Source: Flavobacteriaceae bacterium (GTDB lineage Bacteria > Bacteroidota > Bacteroidia > Flavobacteriales > Weeksellaceae). From it: a stretch of DNA of 64,000 bases. The notes under the pieces are model-generated. The model did not search any database, was not told the DNA's origin, and was given only the letters and a program-made list of their open reading frames with translations. The stretch lies in assembly GCA_012522185.1 (NCBI GenBank), contig JAAYKY010000041.1, forward strand, positions 1 through 64,000, written 5' to 3'. Shown piece after piece: positions 33,559 through 39,660 of this stretch (its first letter is position 1; the number at the start of each line of letters is the position of its first letter). The translations under genes and the position numbers were made by a program.

Positions 33559-34767
33559 TTAGTTTGCCTGTCTCAAAAGTACCGTGTAAACCGGGAAGTG
33601 GTCACTGTATCCGTTGGCTCGGAAGGTGTCGCCTGAGAACATTCTATAAGGATATCCTTTGTATTGGCCATCGGGTTGAACCAAATAATCAGGTGAATAA
33701 ATCTCTGTTTTATAAACTTTGTAAGATTCATACTTCTTGTCGGATTCAATCATTGTACCCGTAACGATGATTTGATCAAAAAGATTCCAAGAATCGCGGT
33801 AGGCGAGTGTACCCATTCCACCTCGAAACATATTGTACATTAAATTCACCACATCTGAATCTTTGATTTTCCCTTTGTTTGGAATTGCTTTCATCACCTT
33901 GTCCAAACTTGGACTTACGGGATCGTCGTTGAAGTCACCCATAGAAAGGATTTTCGCTTTTGGGTTTTCTGCACGGATCTCCTCAAAGATAGATTTCATC
34001 ACTTCGGCTGCTTTTTGTCTTCTCGGACGGCTTCTCGCTTCACCCCCACTTCTTGAGGGCCAATGACTTACTAAAAAGGTAATTTCTTCTCCGTCCAATA
34101 AACCTGTTACACGTAGTATATCACGGGTATAATCTCTTTTACCATCACTTCCATAAATTTCAATCACATAAGGTTTGGCCTTGGTTACTTCAAATCGACT
34201 TTTTTGGTAGATCAAAGCAACGTCCACGCCTCGTGCATCAAAGGAGTTGAAATGTACGACGCCATAATCGTATCTTTTTAATGCCGGTTGATTAATAAGG
34301 TCTTCTACATTTTGGCGATTTTCGATTTCACAAAGCCCCACGATCACCGGAGCAGTTTGGGTTTCGGCTTTACCAAGTTCCGCAATCACTTCGGAAAGGT
34401 TTTTCAGTTTTTGGTTGTATTTATCTTCGTTCCAAACTTTTCTACCGCCTGGAGAAAACTCCTCTCGTTGTAAAATCAATGGTCGGATTACCTTTTTTCC
34501 TTCTAGATTTTCGTAGTTAAATTCGCCGTCGAAAGGTTCGGTTTCATAATTAGAAATTTCATCAACGGAGATTGAAATATGATACAAAGAATCATTTGGG
34601 CTTCTTGTACCGTCTATATAACCCACAGAGACTTCTGTATCAAAAAGGTTTTCCACATTGTAAAAACCTACGGTTGCTGCCTGATAATTTTCCTGTCCAT
34701 ATAAGGACATTGAAAAGAATAGGGCAATAATGCTGAAAATCGTTAAAGATTTATTAATTTTAGTCAT
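33559..34767 (-). CDS. Exported endonuclease/exonuclease/phosphatase-family protein
   Basis: A 402-residue EEP-fold protein with a signal peptide ending around LYGQ. All core motifs are present in order: FYNVENLFD (metal-contacting Asn), GLCEIEN (metal Glu), RGVDVALIY, SHWPSRSGG (His), GDFNDDP (Asp/Asn) and YSDHFPV (catalytic His). EEP enzymes hydrolyse phosphodiesters in DNA, RNA, inositol phosphates or lipids; export suggests an extracellular or periplasmic nuclease or phosphodiesterase. It has no T9SS domain. It diverges from a TonB-dependent receptor and DUF5689 lipoprotein across an 87-base gap, suggesting a shared uptake function. Confidence 0.9.
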   Translation of the reverse strand: MTKINKSLTIFSIIALFFSMSLYGQENYQAATVGFYNVENLFDTEVSVGYIDGTRSPNDSLYHISISVDEISNYETEPFDGEFNYENLEGKKVIRPLILQREEFSPGGRKVWNEDKYNQKLKNLSEVIAELGKAETQTAPVIVGLCEIENRQNVEDLINQPALKRYDYGVVHFNSFDARGVDVALIYQKSRFEVTKAKPYVIEIYGSDGKRDYTRDILRVTGLLDGEEITFLVSHWPSRSGGEARSRPRRQKAAEVMKSIFEEIRAENPKAKILSMGDFNDDPVSPSLDKVMKAIPNKGKIKDSDVVNLMYNMFRGGMGTLAYRDSWNLFDQIIVTGTMIESDKKYESYKVYKTEIYSPDYLVQPDGQYKGYPYRMFSGDTFRANGYSDHFPVYTVLLRQAN

Positions 34768-34779
34768 GATATATTTTAT

Positions 34780-34787
34780 TACTTTTG
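34780..34787 (+). promoter_or_regulatory. TonB receptor gene -7 box TACTTTTG
   Basis: A perfect TAnnTTTG 67 bases before the receptor ATG. The leader also contains an inverted repeat CTCAAATT (34792-34799) and AATTTGAG (34817-34824) with a 17-base spacer, possibly an operator or RNA hairpin. Confidence 0.45.
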
Positions 34788-34854
34788 TTGCCTCAAATTT
34801 CTTGGGTAAGACAATTAATTTGAGAGCGCTAAATTAAAGATAAAAATTCTTTGA

Positions 34855-37641
34855 ATGAATAAATTATTATTAAGTATGATTTTCAGTGTGATTTTTGGAA
34901 TCGCGCTGATGGGTCAAACAAGAATTTCTGGAGTCGTGAAGGACTCCTCAACAGAAAAGGAGATATACAACCTTGCGGTAACCATTGTGGAAACCGGTGA
35001 GGAAGTAAGGACAGACCGGATTGGTTATTTCCAGTTCGTGGATGTTACGTCAGGTATTTATACCATTAGAGTTACGGGAGTTGGTTATCAACCCTTTGAG
35101 AGAGAAGTGGTGGTAAACAACGAACCTCGAATTGATTTAGGTGATTTGATGGTGGTTTTCAACCCCAGAAGTGTAGAAATCGGAATTATCACGCTGACCG
35201 AAGATGAATTATCGGCCGATGAGTCTTCTTCTCAGTCAGCGGCAGGTTTGCTTCAATCCTCTCAGGATGTTTTTGCAAGTACTGCTTCTTATGAATTAGG
35301 GGCTTATTGGTTCAAAGTTCGTGGGTATGATAACAAATACAACGATGTGTTTTTCAATGGAGTTCGTATGAACAAGATCTACAATGATCGTGTGAATTTT
35401 GGTAACTGGGGTGGACTAAACGATGTAACGCGTCGTCCAGCTGAGCAAACCATCGGGATTGAACCTTCTGATTATGCTTTTGGAGATGTGGGAGGAGTAA
35501 CTTATTACGATACTCGCCCTTCCACACTTCGCAAAGGAACCAGTTTGGCTTATTCTTTCACGAATCGTTCGTATAATCAGCGTGTTTTAGCCACTTACAA
35601 CACTGGTTTGATGGACAATGGATGGGCTTTTATGGGTTCTGCTGCGAGAAGATGGGCAGAAGAAGGAGCCATCGAAGGTACTTTCTATGATTCATGGGCG
35701 TACTTCTTTGCGGCTGAAAAAAAATTCAACGAAAAACATAGTATTGTGTTGAGTGGATTTGGAGCTCCTACTCGTCGTTCGACCAATAGCCCGAATACAC
35801 AGGAAGTATATGATTTGATGGGCAAAGATTATAATGCGTACTGGGGATGGCAAGACGGTGAGAAAAGAAGTGAAAGAATTCGTAATTTCCACGAACCTCT
35901 AATTACTCTTACTCACCATTGGAATCTTTCTCCCAAGTCAAAACTTTTGACTTCGGTGGGCTATCAGTTCGGAAAAGACAGCAGAAGCCGTCTGGATTGG
36001 TTCAAAGCCAATAACCCTTCGCCGATTTATTACCGAAATCTTCCAAGCTACTATGCAACTGTAGATGGAACCACTCCGGAGCAAATCGAAGAAGTTATCC
36101 GTATGTGGCAAAATGATCAAAACTATTCACAGTTGGATTGGACCGATATTTACAATCAAAACTACAACCGAGGAACGGGAGCTGCTGCTTATGTTTTGGC
36201 CGCTGACGTGAACGAAGATCAAATTATGACCTTCTCAACTCGTTTCCAATCCCAAATCTTGAGTAATTTCAATTTCATTGCCGGATTTAATTATCAGAAC
36301 ACCCAATCTGAGCAATACAGAGAAGTTTTGGATTTATTGGGTGGAGATCATTTCGTGAACTATAATGCTTTCCAAAAATCTTTCTACAACGTAGATGAAG
36401 ATCCTAACCGCAAAGTCTATGTGGGAGACAAATACCAATACCACTATAACATCAGTCATCAAAGAGGAGATCTTTTTGTTCAGGGAAAACTGGCTTTGAA
36501 CAAATTTGATATCACATTGGGAATGAAAGCTGGTTATACTTCGGTTTTCAGAGATGGAAAATACCGTCACGAACAATACTTGGACAATTCAAAAGGAAAG
36601 AGCAAAACTTATAATTTCTTTGATTTTGGAACAAAAGCACAGGTGCTTTATAAGTTAAATGGTAGAAACTTCTTCCAATTAAACGCATTGTATGCTTCCA
36701 ATGCTCCAACAATTGATGAGATCTTTCCAAATGCAAGATCCAACGATTACACCATCGATGAGAACAATTATTTGCAAAACGGAAACAATTTGACGAGTTC
36801 AAAAATTCTTTCTACAGATTTGAGCTATATCCTGAGAGCTCCACGAGTGAAGGGACGTTTGACGGGTTATTATACCAAATTCTACGATGAGTATGAGAAA
36901 AATTTCGGGTACATCGACACCGGTTCTGGAAATGCTAACTTATTTGGAGCTGAATTTATGTACAATGTGGACAAACTATTCTTTGGAGGAGAAATCGCAG
37001 CTGAAGTTCAGTTGACCACTACATTGACTTTATCAGCAGTTGCTTCCGTAGGACAATTCACTTACGACAACAACCCAACTTATCAGCGATTCTCTGACAG
37101 CTATGCTACTGCATTGGTTGAGGGAAGCGATATGCTGCTTACGGTTGGAGCTGAAGCACCTCAGACTACTTATCTGAAAGATTACCGAGTGGCAACCGGA
37201 CCTCAACAAGGTTATTCCTTAGGACTTGAATACCGCGACCCGAACTATTGGTGGATTGGCGCAACCGGAAACTATATGGCAAGCAATTACCTAGATCCGG
37301 CTCCTTACCGAAGAACTTCAGGGGTCTGGGGAAGTCAGCCTTGGAATTATACAGACGATATGGTGAGAGATTTTCTACAACAAGAAAGATTCTCAGATGA
37401 ATTTATGCTGAACCTTAACGCAGGTAAAACCTTCCGCTTTGGAAAATACTTCATGGGAATCAGTGCAAACGTAAACAACGTACTCAACAACCGTCAATAT
37501 GTAACCGGAGGATTTGAGCAAGTGCGTATCGGAAACCTCGACGTATTGGCAAACCGCCCCGGATATGACAAAGTTTTCGCACCAAGGTATTGGTACGACA
37601 GAGGACGTTCTTATTTCATCAATGTTTTCTTCAGATTTTAA
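34855..37641 (+). CDS. TonB-dependent receptor
   Basis: A 928-residue outer-membrane receptor. The signal peptide ends at ALMGQ; residues 21-105 are a CarboxypepD_reg-like domain (TRISGVVKDSSTEKEIYNL..GVGYQPFEREV). A plug follows with GAYWFKVRGYDNKYNDVFFNG VRM-type sequence near 145-175, and then a 22-strand-type barrel ending in RSYFINVFFRF with a terminal Phe for outer-membrane insertion. There is no STN domain. It is the first gene of a unit with the DUF5689 lipoprotein, which occupies the position SusD has beside SusC. Substrate unknown; the divergent EEP gene hints at nucleic acid or phosphate-ester breakdown products. Confidence 0.92.
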   Translation: MNKLLLSMIFSVIFGIALMGQTRISGVVKDSSTEKEIYNLAVTIVETGEEVRTDRIGYFQFVDVTSGIYTIRVTGVGYQPFEREVVVNNEPRIDLGDLMVVFNPRSVEIGIITLTEDELSADESSSQSAAGLLQSSQDVFASTASYELGAYWFKVRGYDNKYNDVFFNGVRMNKIYNDRVNFGNWGGLNDVTRRPAEQTIGIEPSDYAFGDVGGVTYYDTRPSTLRKGTSLAYSFTNRSYNQRVLATYNTGLMDNGWAFMGSAARRWAEEGAIEGTFYDSWAYFFAAEKKFNEKHSIVLSGFGAPTRRSTNSPNTQEVYDLMGKDYNAYWGWQDGEKRSERIRNFHEPLITLTHHWNLSPKSKLLTSVGYQFGKDSRSRLDWFKANNPSPIYYRNLPSYYATVDGTTPEQIEEVIRMWQNDQNYSQLDWTDIYNQNYNRGTGAAAYVLAADVNEDQIMTFSTRFQSQILSNFNFIAGFNYQNTQSEQYREVLDLLGGDHFVNYNAFQKSFYNVDEDPNRKVYVGDKYQYHYNISHQRGDLFVQGKLALNKFDITLGMKAGYTSVFRDGKYRHEQYLDNSKGKSKTYNFFDFGTKAQVLYKLNGRNFFQLNALYASNAPTIDEIFPNARSNDYTIDENNYLQNGNNLTSSKILSTDLSYILRAPRVKGRLTGYYTKFYDEYEKNFGYIDTGSGNANLFGAEFMYNVDKLFFGGEIAAEVQLTTTLTLSAVASVGQFTYDNNPTYQRFSDSYATALVEGSDMLLTVGAEAPQTTYLKDYRVATGPQQGYSLGLEYRDPNYWWIGATGNYMASNYLDPAPYRRTSGVWGSQPWNYTDDMVRDFLQQERFSDEFMLNLNAGKTFRFGKYFMGISANVNNVLNNRQYVTGGFEQVRIGNLDVLANRPGYDKVFAPRYWYDRGRSYFINVFFRF

Positions 37642-37668
37642 TTTAACAACGACATAATTTTACATAAA

Positions 37669-39660
37669 ATGAATACAATTAAGCAAATCAAATTTATAGT
37701 CCTTGCCATGGTCGGTCTTTTGACGCTCAACTCATGTGTACAGGATGACGATTTCGCACTGCCGCCGGTAGTGTGTAATGACACTTGGACGGCCAATCTA
37801 ACGATTGCTGAACTAATGACTCAAGCCGAAAATTCAGATGATATCTTATTTTTCACTTCAGATGAAATCGTAGAAGGCTATGTAGTATCAAGCGACTTAA
37901 CTGGAAATTTCTTTAAAACAATTTCCATTCAAGATAGTCCATTCAGCCCTAACCGTGCTTTGCAAGTAGAAATGGACCGAACCAATCTGTTCAATAATTT
38001 CCCTTTAGGCTCAAAAGTAAAAGTAAACTTAAACGGTTTGAACGTAGGATTTGACCGTGGAACACTTAAAATCGGAGAAACTTATCAAGACGCAAACGGA
38101 AATATCCGTGTAGGAAGAATGGCAGAAAACAAAATTGACAGCCACGTAAAATTGGCTTGTGACCCTGTTGCAGACCTACAACCCGTTGTTTACGCATCGA
38201 TTGCTGATGCGATTTCAGCAGTAGGAGCTTCCGATCGTATCAACACTTTGGTAACCATCCAAAATGTTCAATTCCAAGATGTAGGAGTTACCTATGCAGA
38301 TGCAACCAACCAAACCACAGTAAACCTTAACTTGGTAGGAGCTACTGAAACAACAAACAACCAAAAAGTAGTATTGAGAACGAGTGGATTTGCTGATTTT
38401 GCAGGTGAAACAGTTCCATCTGGAAGCGGAAGCATCACGGCTGTGTTAAGCGCATACGACTCAAACAACAACGGATCTATCACTGCGAGCGAATACCAAT
38501 TGTTCATCAGAGATACAAATGACGTTCAGTTCAACAATCCAAGATACGGTGAAGGCGGAGGAACCCCAGGAGAATTCGAATTCCTTGCTTGTTTAGACGA
38601 AGATTTCTCTTCCTACAACGTGGACAATGAGTCTTTCCCAAACTATGAAAACATCTCTGTTCAGGGAACTCGCAAATGGAGAGTAAGAGAATTCAGTGCA
38701 AACCAATACATCGAGGTAAGCGCATTCCAAACCACTGGAGCAGTAGTTACACATTTCGTAGTACCTGTTAACTTCAGCGAAGCGGACAGTTTCTCTTTCA
38801 AAACCAAAGACGGACACAATAATGGAGATCCATTGAGAGTATATTATTCAACCAACTATACTCCCGGCGGTGACAATACAGGAGCAACTCTTGTAAACAT
38901 CACTTCTTCTTTCAATATCGCAACAGGTACAACCAATGGTTATGCAGATAACTTCACAGAATCCGGAAGCTATAGCTTTGATTCATTGAGCGGTCAAGGA
39001 GTAATCATCTTTGCTTACGAAGGTGGAAATGGAGTTACGACAACCATCCAGATTGATGACATTCAGATTGTGGACAATGATGACCCGAACTGTTCATCTG
39101 GCGACGGAGGTGGTGGTGACGCTCCCAACCCACCGGCAGCAGATGCAATTCCATTGTTTGCAGGACATGATTTTGAAAACTGGGATAACTTCATCGCAGG
39201 TTTAAATTCTTTTGGAATTAAATCCTATGCTACACAGAGCGCCGGAACCGGAATGAACGGAACTGCTTCTTTGGCTATCCAGACAGACCCTACAACTACC
39301 AACGGAAACGACTACGTTTTCACTACGGTAGCACCTGCAGGATTACCTTCTAACTATAGCCGAATTACTTTCTATGTAAAAGGTACCTCCGATAAATCTG
39401 TTTCCCTAAATGTTTACAAAACAGACGGAACTTATTATGTTTTCAACTTAGGCGATTTAACCTCTAGCTCAACCATTGAGATGGCAGGAAACAACCAATA
39501 CGGCGGAAACATCAATACCGGAGGAGACTGGGTTTTGGTAGCTCTTGATTTAAGTCAAATCACAGACCTGAACGTAGGACCGGGCGGAGATTCATTCGCT
39601 TTGAAAATCGGTAAAAACGCAAACTATGATTTGCATTTTGATAATTTCACAATCGAATAA
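37669..39660 (+). CDS. DUF5689 surface lipoprotein
   Basis: A 663-residue lipoprotein with lipobox LNSC (Cys23). Residues about 45-285 are a DUF5689 domain (IVEGYVVSSDLTGNFFKTISIQD, GSKVKVNLNGLNVG), an OB-fold-like region. Residues about 300-470 resemble a choice-of-anchor J jelly roll (CLDEDFSSYN to TIQIDDIQIVDND), a Gly/Pro linker follows (DGGGGDAPNPP), and a third beta-sandwich (495-663) ends in YDLHFDNFTIE, like a carbohydrate-binding module. It starts 27 bases after the receptor gene and is followed by a terminator, so the two form an operon. I infer an outer-leaflet partner for substrate capture. Confidence 0.85.
   Translation: MNTIKQIKFIVLAMVGLLTLNSCVQDDDFALPPVVCNDTWTANLTIAELMTQAENSDDILFFTSDEIVEGYVVSSDLTGNFFKTISIQDSPFSPNRALQVEMDRTNLFNNFPLGSKVKVNLNGLNVGFDRGTLKIGETYQDANGNIRVGRMAENKIDSHVKLACDPVADLQPVVYASIADAISAVGASDRINTLVTIQNVQFQDVGVTYADATNQTTVNLNLVGATETTNNQKVVLRTSGFADFAGETVPSGSGSITAVLSAYDSNNNGSITASEYQLFIRDTNDVQFNNPRYGEGGGTPGEFEFLACLDEDFSSYNVDNESFPNYENISVQGTRKWRVREFSANQYIEVSAFQTTGAVVTHFVVPVNFSEADSFSFKTKDGHNNGDPLRVYYSTNYTPGGDNTGATLVNITSSFNIATGTTNGYADNFTESGSYSFDSLSGQGVIIFAYEGGNGVTTTIQIDDIQIVDNDDPNCSSGDGGGGDAPNPPAADAIPLFAGHDFENWDNFIAGLNSFGIKSYATQSAGTGMNGTASLAIQTDPTTTNGNDYVFTTVAPAGLPSNYSRITFYVKGTSDKSVSLNVYKTDGTYYVFNLGDLTSSSTIEMAGNNQYGGNINTGGDWVLVALDLSQITDLNVGPGGDSFALKIGKNANYDLHFDNFTIE

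Follow-up and report, generated by a model that had tools for sequence, protein, structure and literature searches.

How DNA passes the outer membrane and is converted to a single strand without type IV pilus secretins is an open question, and a small locus of a Flavobacteriaceae bacterium bears on it. An EEP-superfamily enzyme is encoded there divergently from a TonB-dependent-receptor-like protein, itself followed by a lipoprotein containing a DUF5689 domain. Does this set of genes serve the scavenging of nucleic acids or phosphate esters, as a sequence-only reading had proposed, or does it bring in DNA for another purpose? Based on the evidence presented below, we consider it likely that the locus is the outer-membrane DNA-uptake locus of flavobacterial (Riemerella-type) natural transformation, with the EEP enzyme acting on incoming DNA.

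Organization and products of the locus

The window, i.e., the whole stretch of 64,000 nucleotides that was analysed, is contig C23 of a 2.55-Mb genome (G000) which is 99.6% complete. The three open reading frames reported by the sequence-only reading were all recovered at the same positions: the EEP gene on the minus strand (33559..34767), then the receptor gene (34855..37641) and the lipoprotein gene (37669..39660), both on the plus strand. The divergent intergenic region spans 87 bp (34768..34854) as described earlier and contains a TAnnTTTG element of the flavobacterial -7 type (34780-34787) oriented towards the receptor gene; most relatives have this element about 44-82 bp 5' of the start of the receptor gene. 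A CCTCA...TGAGG-like inverted repeat was also observed at 34788-34830 of the window and in the intergenic regions of two congeneric loci (L035 and L050). It lies directly 3' of the promoter-like element in congeners and could be an operator.

The EEP protein matches PF19580 (Exo_endo_phos_3) with a score of 344.6 bits (5.8e-103) for a cut-off of 27, and an alignment of 32 relatives shows that its seven catalytic residues, E146, E148, D277, N279, D330, D388 and H389, are invariant, which bears out the earlier claim that the catalytic motifs are present. Its AlphaFold model (pLDDT 88) adopts a DNase I-like fold and superimposes on TDP2 (Z 24.3, rmsd 3.0, 235 aligned residues), on the mannosyl-6-phosphatase BT3783 (Z 23.9) and on DNase I itself (Z 22.7, rmsd 2.7, 227 aligned residues), while searches of the PDB sequences with either the single sequence or a profile returned no relative. 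The EEP superfamily also comprises phosphatases and other phosphodiesterases, and DNA is consequently only a candidate substrate. The identity of an ExeM/NucH extracellular endonuclease (NF033681) was considered and rejected (25.7 bits for a curated cut-off of 300): the EEP catalytic domain is common to both, although the match is weak, and the N-terminal part of the NF033681 model is missing from the window enzyme.

All 32 EEP orthologues begin with a hydrophobic N-terminus ending in xAQ, xSQ or a similar motif. No lipobox was detected by eye in these 32 sequences, all of which stop at the catalytic domain with neither a T9SS domain nor a C-terminal tail. Based on these features, as read for this phylum, the enzyme is probably periplasmic and bears a Sec-type signal. 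Its earlier description as a secreted enzyme is thus retained for Sec export but not for export beyond the periplasm.

The receptor exhibits a CarbopepD_reg_2 match and a sub-threshold Plug match in Pfam, stands out as the one dominant match within its own genome and gave only weak, partial matches when compared with PDB sequences. The lipoprotein contains a DUF5689 domain (residues 41-286, 37789..38526 on the plus strand; PF18942, 1.1e-54), followed on the same strand by a choice-of-anchor J or MAM-like jelly-roll domain (residues 309-467, 38593..39069; NF038128, 7.8e-11) and by a third, CBM30-like jelly-roll domain (residues about 485-663, 39121..39657). Structurally, the second domain resembles the cleaved-adhesin domain of gingipain (VIA Z 14.0, rmsd 2.7, 148 aligned residues) and the third resembles 1wmx (VIA Z 11.1, rmsd 3.0, 146 aligned residues). 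Strand order in the model, together with a motif, suggests that the DUF5689 domain is possibly OB-like; the results of a fold search with the lipoprotein model were filled by jelly-roll domains, and neither the lipoprotein nor a DUF5689 profile retrieved a relative from the PDB.

The lipobox cysteine of this protein, Cys23, is followed by VQDDD (as read by eye), an acidic stretch kept in most relatives. Since surface lipoproteins of Bacteroidetes are exported by means of an acidic stretch right after the cysteine (PMC5080379), this segment resembles the published signal and is consistent with a surface-exposed lipoprotein. In relatives, the third domain (39121-39657) is found joined to DUF5689 or, at other loci, in separate frames of ~270 amino acids, and may represent an exchangeable binding module. 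The lipoproteins of five other loci (L066, L067, L069, L070 and L071) carry two tandem DUF5689 domains in place of DUF5689 and jelly-roll.

SusCD importers, too, combine a TonB-type receptor with a surface lipoprotein encoded after it, and the two proteins had been interpreted as a SusCD-like pair. However, neither of them matches a RagA/SusC or SusD family (Pfam E<=1, NCBIfam E<=0.1). The locus further differs from these importers in that its lipoprotein is made of DUF5689 and jelly-roll domains and in that it contains no glycan genes.

Relatedness to the Riemerella transformation genes

The gene order and orientations found in the window are those of RS04910, RS04915 and RS04920 in the duck bacterium Riemerella anatipestifer, and the homology is full-length. 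Compared with the proteins of R. anatipestifer CCUG25054 (L072), the window receptor exhibits 39% identity over its full length (649 bits), the lipoprotein 38% over residues 1-467 and the EEP enzyme 49%. The receptor and DUF5689 lipoprotein encoded side by side in the window are thus homologues of the R. anatipestifer pair and share its domains (CarboxypepD_reg in the one, DUF5689 with choice-of-anchor J in the other), although identities are 38-49% and the window lipoprotein carries an extra C-terminal jelly-roll domain, i.e., the third domain, which is absent from the Riemerella protein. The window lipoprotein aligns with positions 1-456 of the 457 of NF052645 (M949_1556 family) but scores 370.8 bits, below the curated cut-off of 475; both Riemerella lipoproteins score about 591 bits (590.8 for that of CCUG25054). 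Because the whole model is aligned but the score falls under the cut-off, membership in NF052645 was rejected and we regard the window protein as a syntenic orthologue. As cited in PMC12566107, M949_1556 was reported to affect the antigenicity and pathogenicity of R. anatipestifer.

In the searchable open literature, DUF5689 was found only in a study that used transposon insertions to examine how R. anatipestifer becomes naturally transformed (PMC8459023). RA0C_RS04915, the receptor, and RA0C_RS04920, which contains DUF5689 and choice-of-anchor J domains, were each required for natural transformation, markerless deletion of either gene bringing transformation under detection, and the authors proposed that DNA is bound by RS04920 and then passed through RS04915 (PMC8459023). 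Additionally, tonBA and tonBB mutants exhibit reduced transformation (PMC8383284). Because deletion of these syntenic genes abolishes transformation, we read the window locus as one of DNA uptake for transformation, and it is very likely that its receptor pair serves this function. Gene content is nonetheless no proof of competence, since Flavobacterium johnsoniae possesses all the homologues, yet attempts to transform it failed in the conditions used (PMC8459023).

What of the EEP gene in Riemerella? The gene order in CCUG25054 is comEC, two genes coding for proteins of 145 and 542 amino acids, EEP, receptor and DUF5689, and the same layout was seen with translations at a second Riemerella locus (L041). 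Order and gene count agree exactly with the numbering from RS04895 to RS04920, and RA0C_RS04910 should therefore be the EEP gene, the count having been made in CCUG25054, another strain than ATCC 11845. RA0C_RS04910 is named once in the transposon study, as an upstream gene whose transcription was unchanged, and is not among the genes deleted (PMC8459023). The model of the same study assigns the conversion of double-stranded to single-stranded DNA to 'an unidentified protein' (PMC8459023). The EEP gene was not reported among the 3,000 insertions of the screen, and RS04920 was likewise missed directly, being found through polarity (PMC8459023), which indicates that the screen was not saturated.

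CRISPR genes appear to follow the uptake locus in two Riemerella loci: by eye, Cas2-like and Cas1-like proteins were observed within a few kb after the uptake locus of L041 (12491-13718), and a 1400-amino-acid ORF, the size of Cas9, with an ORF of 299 amino acids after that of CCUG25054 (L072, 13664-18778).

Linkage and loss across genomes

The sequence-only reading had made conservation of the gene neighbourhood its test, and this conservation was found. Counts of linked loci are inflated by common descent and are treated here as a measure of conservation, not as independent trials. Within the 20-kb surroundings of 40 relatives, the EEP (minus strand), receptor and DUF5689 (both plus strand) genes occur together in 38 loci, and the other neighbours seen in the window are kept only within the genus. 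Among 80 further loci retrieved from genome contigs, 79 have the EEP gene, the sole exception beginning at a contig end. The EEP and DUF5689 genes lie no more than 15 kb apart in 86 of 100 family genomes (median gap 3.1 kb) and are divergent in all 86, which makes a chance origin of the triplet far too unlikely. Three of the 14 remaining genomes (G022, G045 and G079) lack both genes, and fragmentation or a contig end interrupts the locus in most others, while in G025 the EEP gene is truly unlinked, 145 kb away. Across the phylum, where shared ancestry confounds such associations, the receptor was detected in 18 of 118 genomes, all 18 of which have a strong EEP match (split into two pieces in four), adjacent and divergent to the receptor in 13. 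The four distant loci that were fetched all contain the full triplet, DUF5689 included. One phylum genome, G185, has an EEP gene without the receptor.

Genes for the later steps of DNA uptake, ComEC, DprA and an HHH protein, are present in both R. anatipestifer and the window genome. ComEC of the latter is intact (686 amino acids) and encoded on contig C6, away from the locus, whereas comEC adjoins the locus in R. anatipestifer; comEC was found linked to the locus in three genomes of genus g2, but not as a general rule. DprA is present, and the HHH gene appears split over two contig ends, its fragments at the end of C49 (L154) and the start of C45 (L153) exhibiting a layout like that of a 265-amino-acid congener gene and, more distantly, of a 445-amino-acid Riemerella gene. 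No secretin (PF00263) was detected in the 99.6% complete window genome. Type IV pilus and secretin competence systems have ComEC and DprA, the inner-membrane and cytosolic end, in common with it, but rely on a secretin at the outer membrane, where the window genome would use the TonB-type receptor.

Among well-assembled family genomes, ComEC is missing only from G022 and G045, both of genus g22. These two genomes also lack DprA, DUF5689 and the EEP orthologue, while EEP paralogues are still there, this co-loss representing a single event. HHH_3 has no match in G045, and no match resembling the multi-HHH protein was found in G022. Both genomes nevertheless retain a diverged, open receptor gene with 24-32% identity (L159 and L160), whose product may have another role; its retention does not fit the DNA-uptake reading neatly. 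In the reduced genome G007, the EEP frame is broken and the receptor gene contains internal stops, for which sequencing error is a possible cause.

Role of the EEP enzyme

In the pathway that we favour, the DUF5689 lipoprotein would capture double-stranded DNA at the cell surface and the TonB-coupled receptor would carry it through the outer membrane, the need for both proteins in transformation having been demonstrated by deletion in R. anatipestifer. The HHH DNA-binding protein and ComEC, for which genes were detected, would then move the DNA onward. In the periplasm, the EEP enzyme would act on the incoming DNA, most likely by nicking or degrading one strand to yield single-stranded DNA for ComEC or, alternatively, by clearing the discarded strand. 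We infer this processing from the fold of the enzyme, its likely location, its linkage and its co-loss. Transformation of R. columbina requires divalent cations (PMC7965970), a need that would fit a metal-dependent enzyme, and many other things too. On balance, it seems probable that the EEP enzyme belongs to the same pathway as the receptor pair. We propose more tentatively that it is the strand-processing nuclease of a pilus-independent competence machine, feeding single-stranded DNA to ComEC and unrelated to EndA.

Extracellular DNases limit transformation in Vibrio and, by analogy, the receptor and lipoprotein could take up DNA while the EEP enzyme restrains this uptake or recycles nucleotides. 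We consider this unlikely, yet a live alternative. The DNase I-like fold of the enzyme would suit such a role, its own promoter-like element and divergent orientation permit separate control, and the EEP gene is absent from the screen for lost transformation (PMC8459023); yet a gene that only counteracts uptake should disappear more readily than the receptor, whereas the EEP gene is kept even where it is unlinked. It is also doubtful that the EEP enzyme has nothing to do with the receptor pair, being a phosphodiesterase or phosphatase of the envelope whose linkage reflects nothing but a stable ancestral gene order. EEP folds do span many substrates, and a single loss event and shared ancestry restrict what can be deduced from the genomes, but the EEP gene stayed in place across genera and into other families while other neighbours were shuffled, and the orthologue was lost in genus g22 while the paralogues remain.

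Finally, nutrient scavenging, in which the receptor pair would import what the EEP enzyme releases from extracellular nucleic acids or phosphate esters, is quite improbable: a receptor, a surface lipoprotein and an exported hydrolase do resemble a utilisation locus, and R. columbina transforms ~2-fold better without phosphate, its authors suggesting DNA as food (PMC7965970), but deletion of the syntenic Riemerella genes abolishes transformation (PMC8459023), omission of phosphate lowers transformation in R. anatipestifer (PMC8383284), neither SusC nor SusD was matched, the enzyme is probably periplasmic, and the EEP gene is near-universally kept and was lost together with ComEC and DprA. R. 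columbina also transforms five-fold better without peptone (PMC7965970), and the use of DNA as a nutrient is possible as a side role. What stands of the sequence-only reading is therefore a TonB-type receptor with a surface lipoprotein, probably handling nucleic acids, and a linked phosphodiesterase-fold enzyme; its SusCD-like pair is not borne out by family models, and its nutrient role is improbable as the main function.

The receptor pair and its synteny have already been published, while the searchable literature does not treat the conserved EEP partner as part of the system, and this partner appears new; later papers on the RS04910, RS04915 and RS04920 genes were not found in the open literature, i.e., outside subscription journals. 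The pair was known in one species, and natural transformation by DNA uptake through it now comes with an EEP enzyme tied to the locus across the family and beyond. Consequently, RA0C_RS04910 becomes a named candidate for a step to which the published model assigned no protein.
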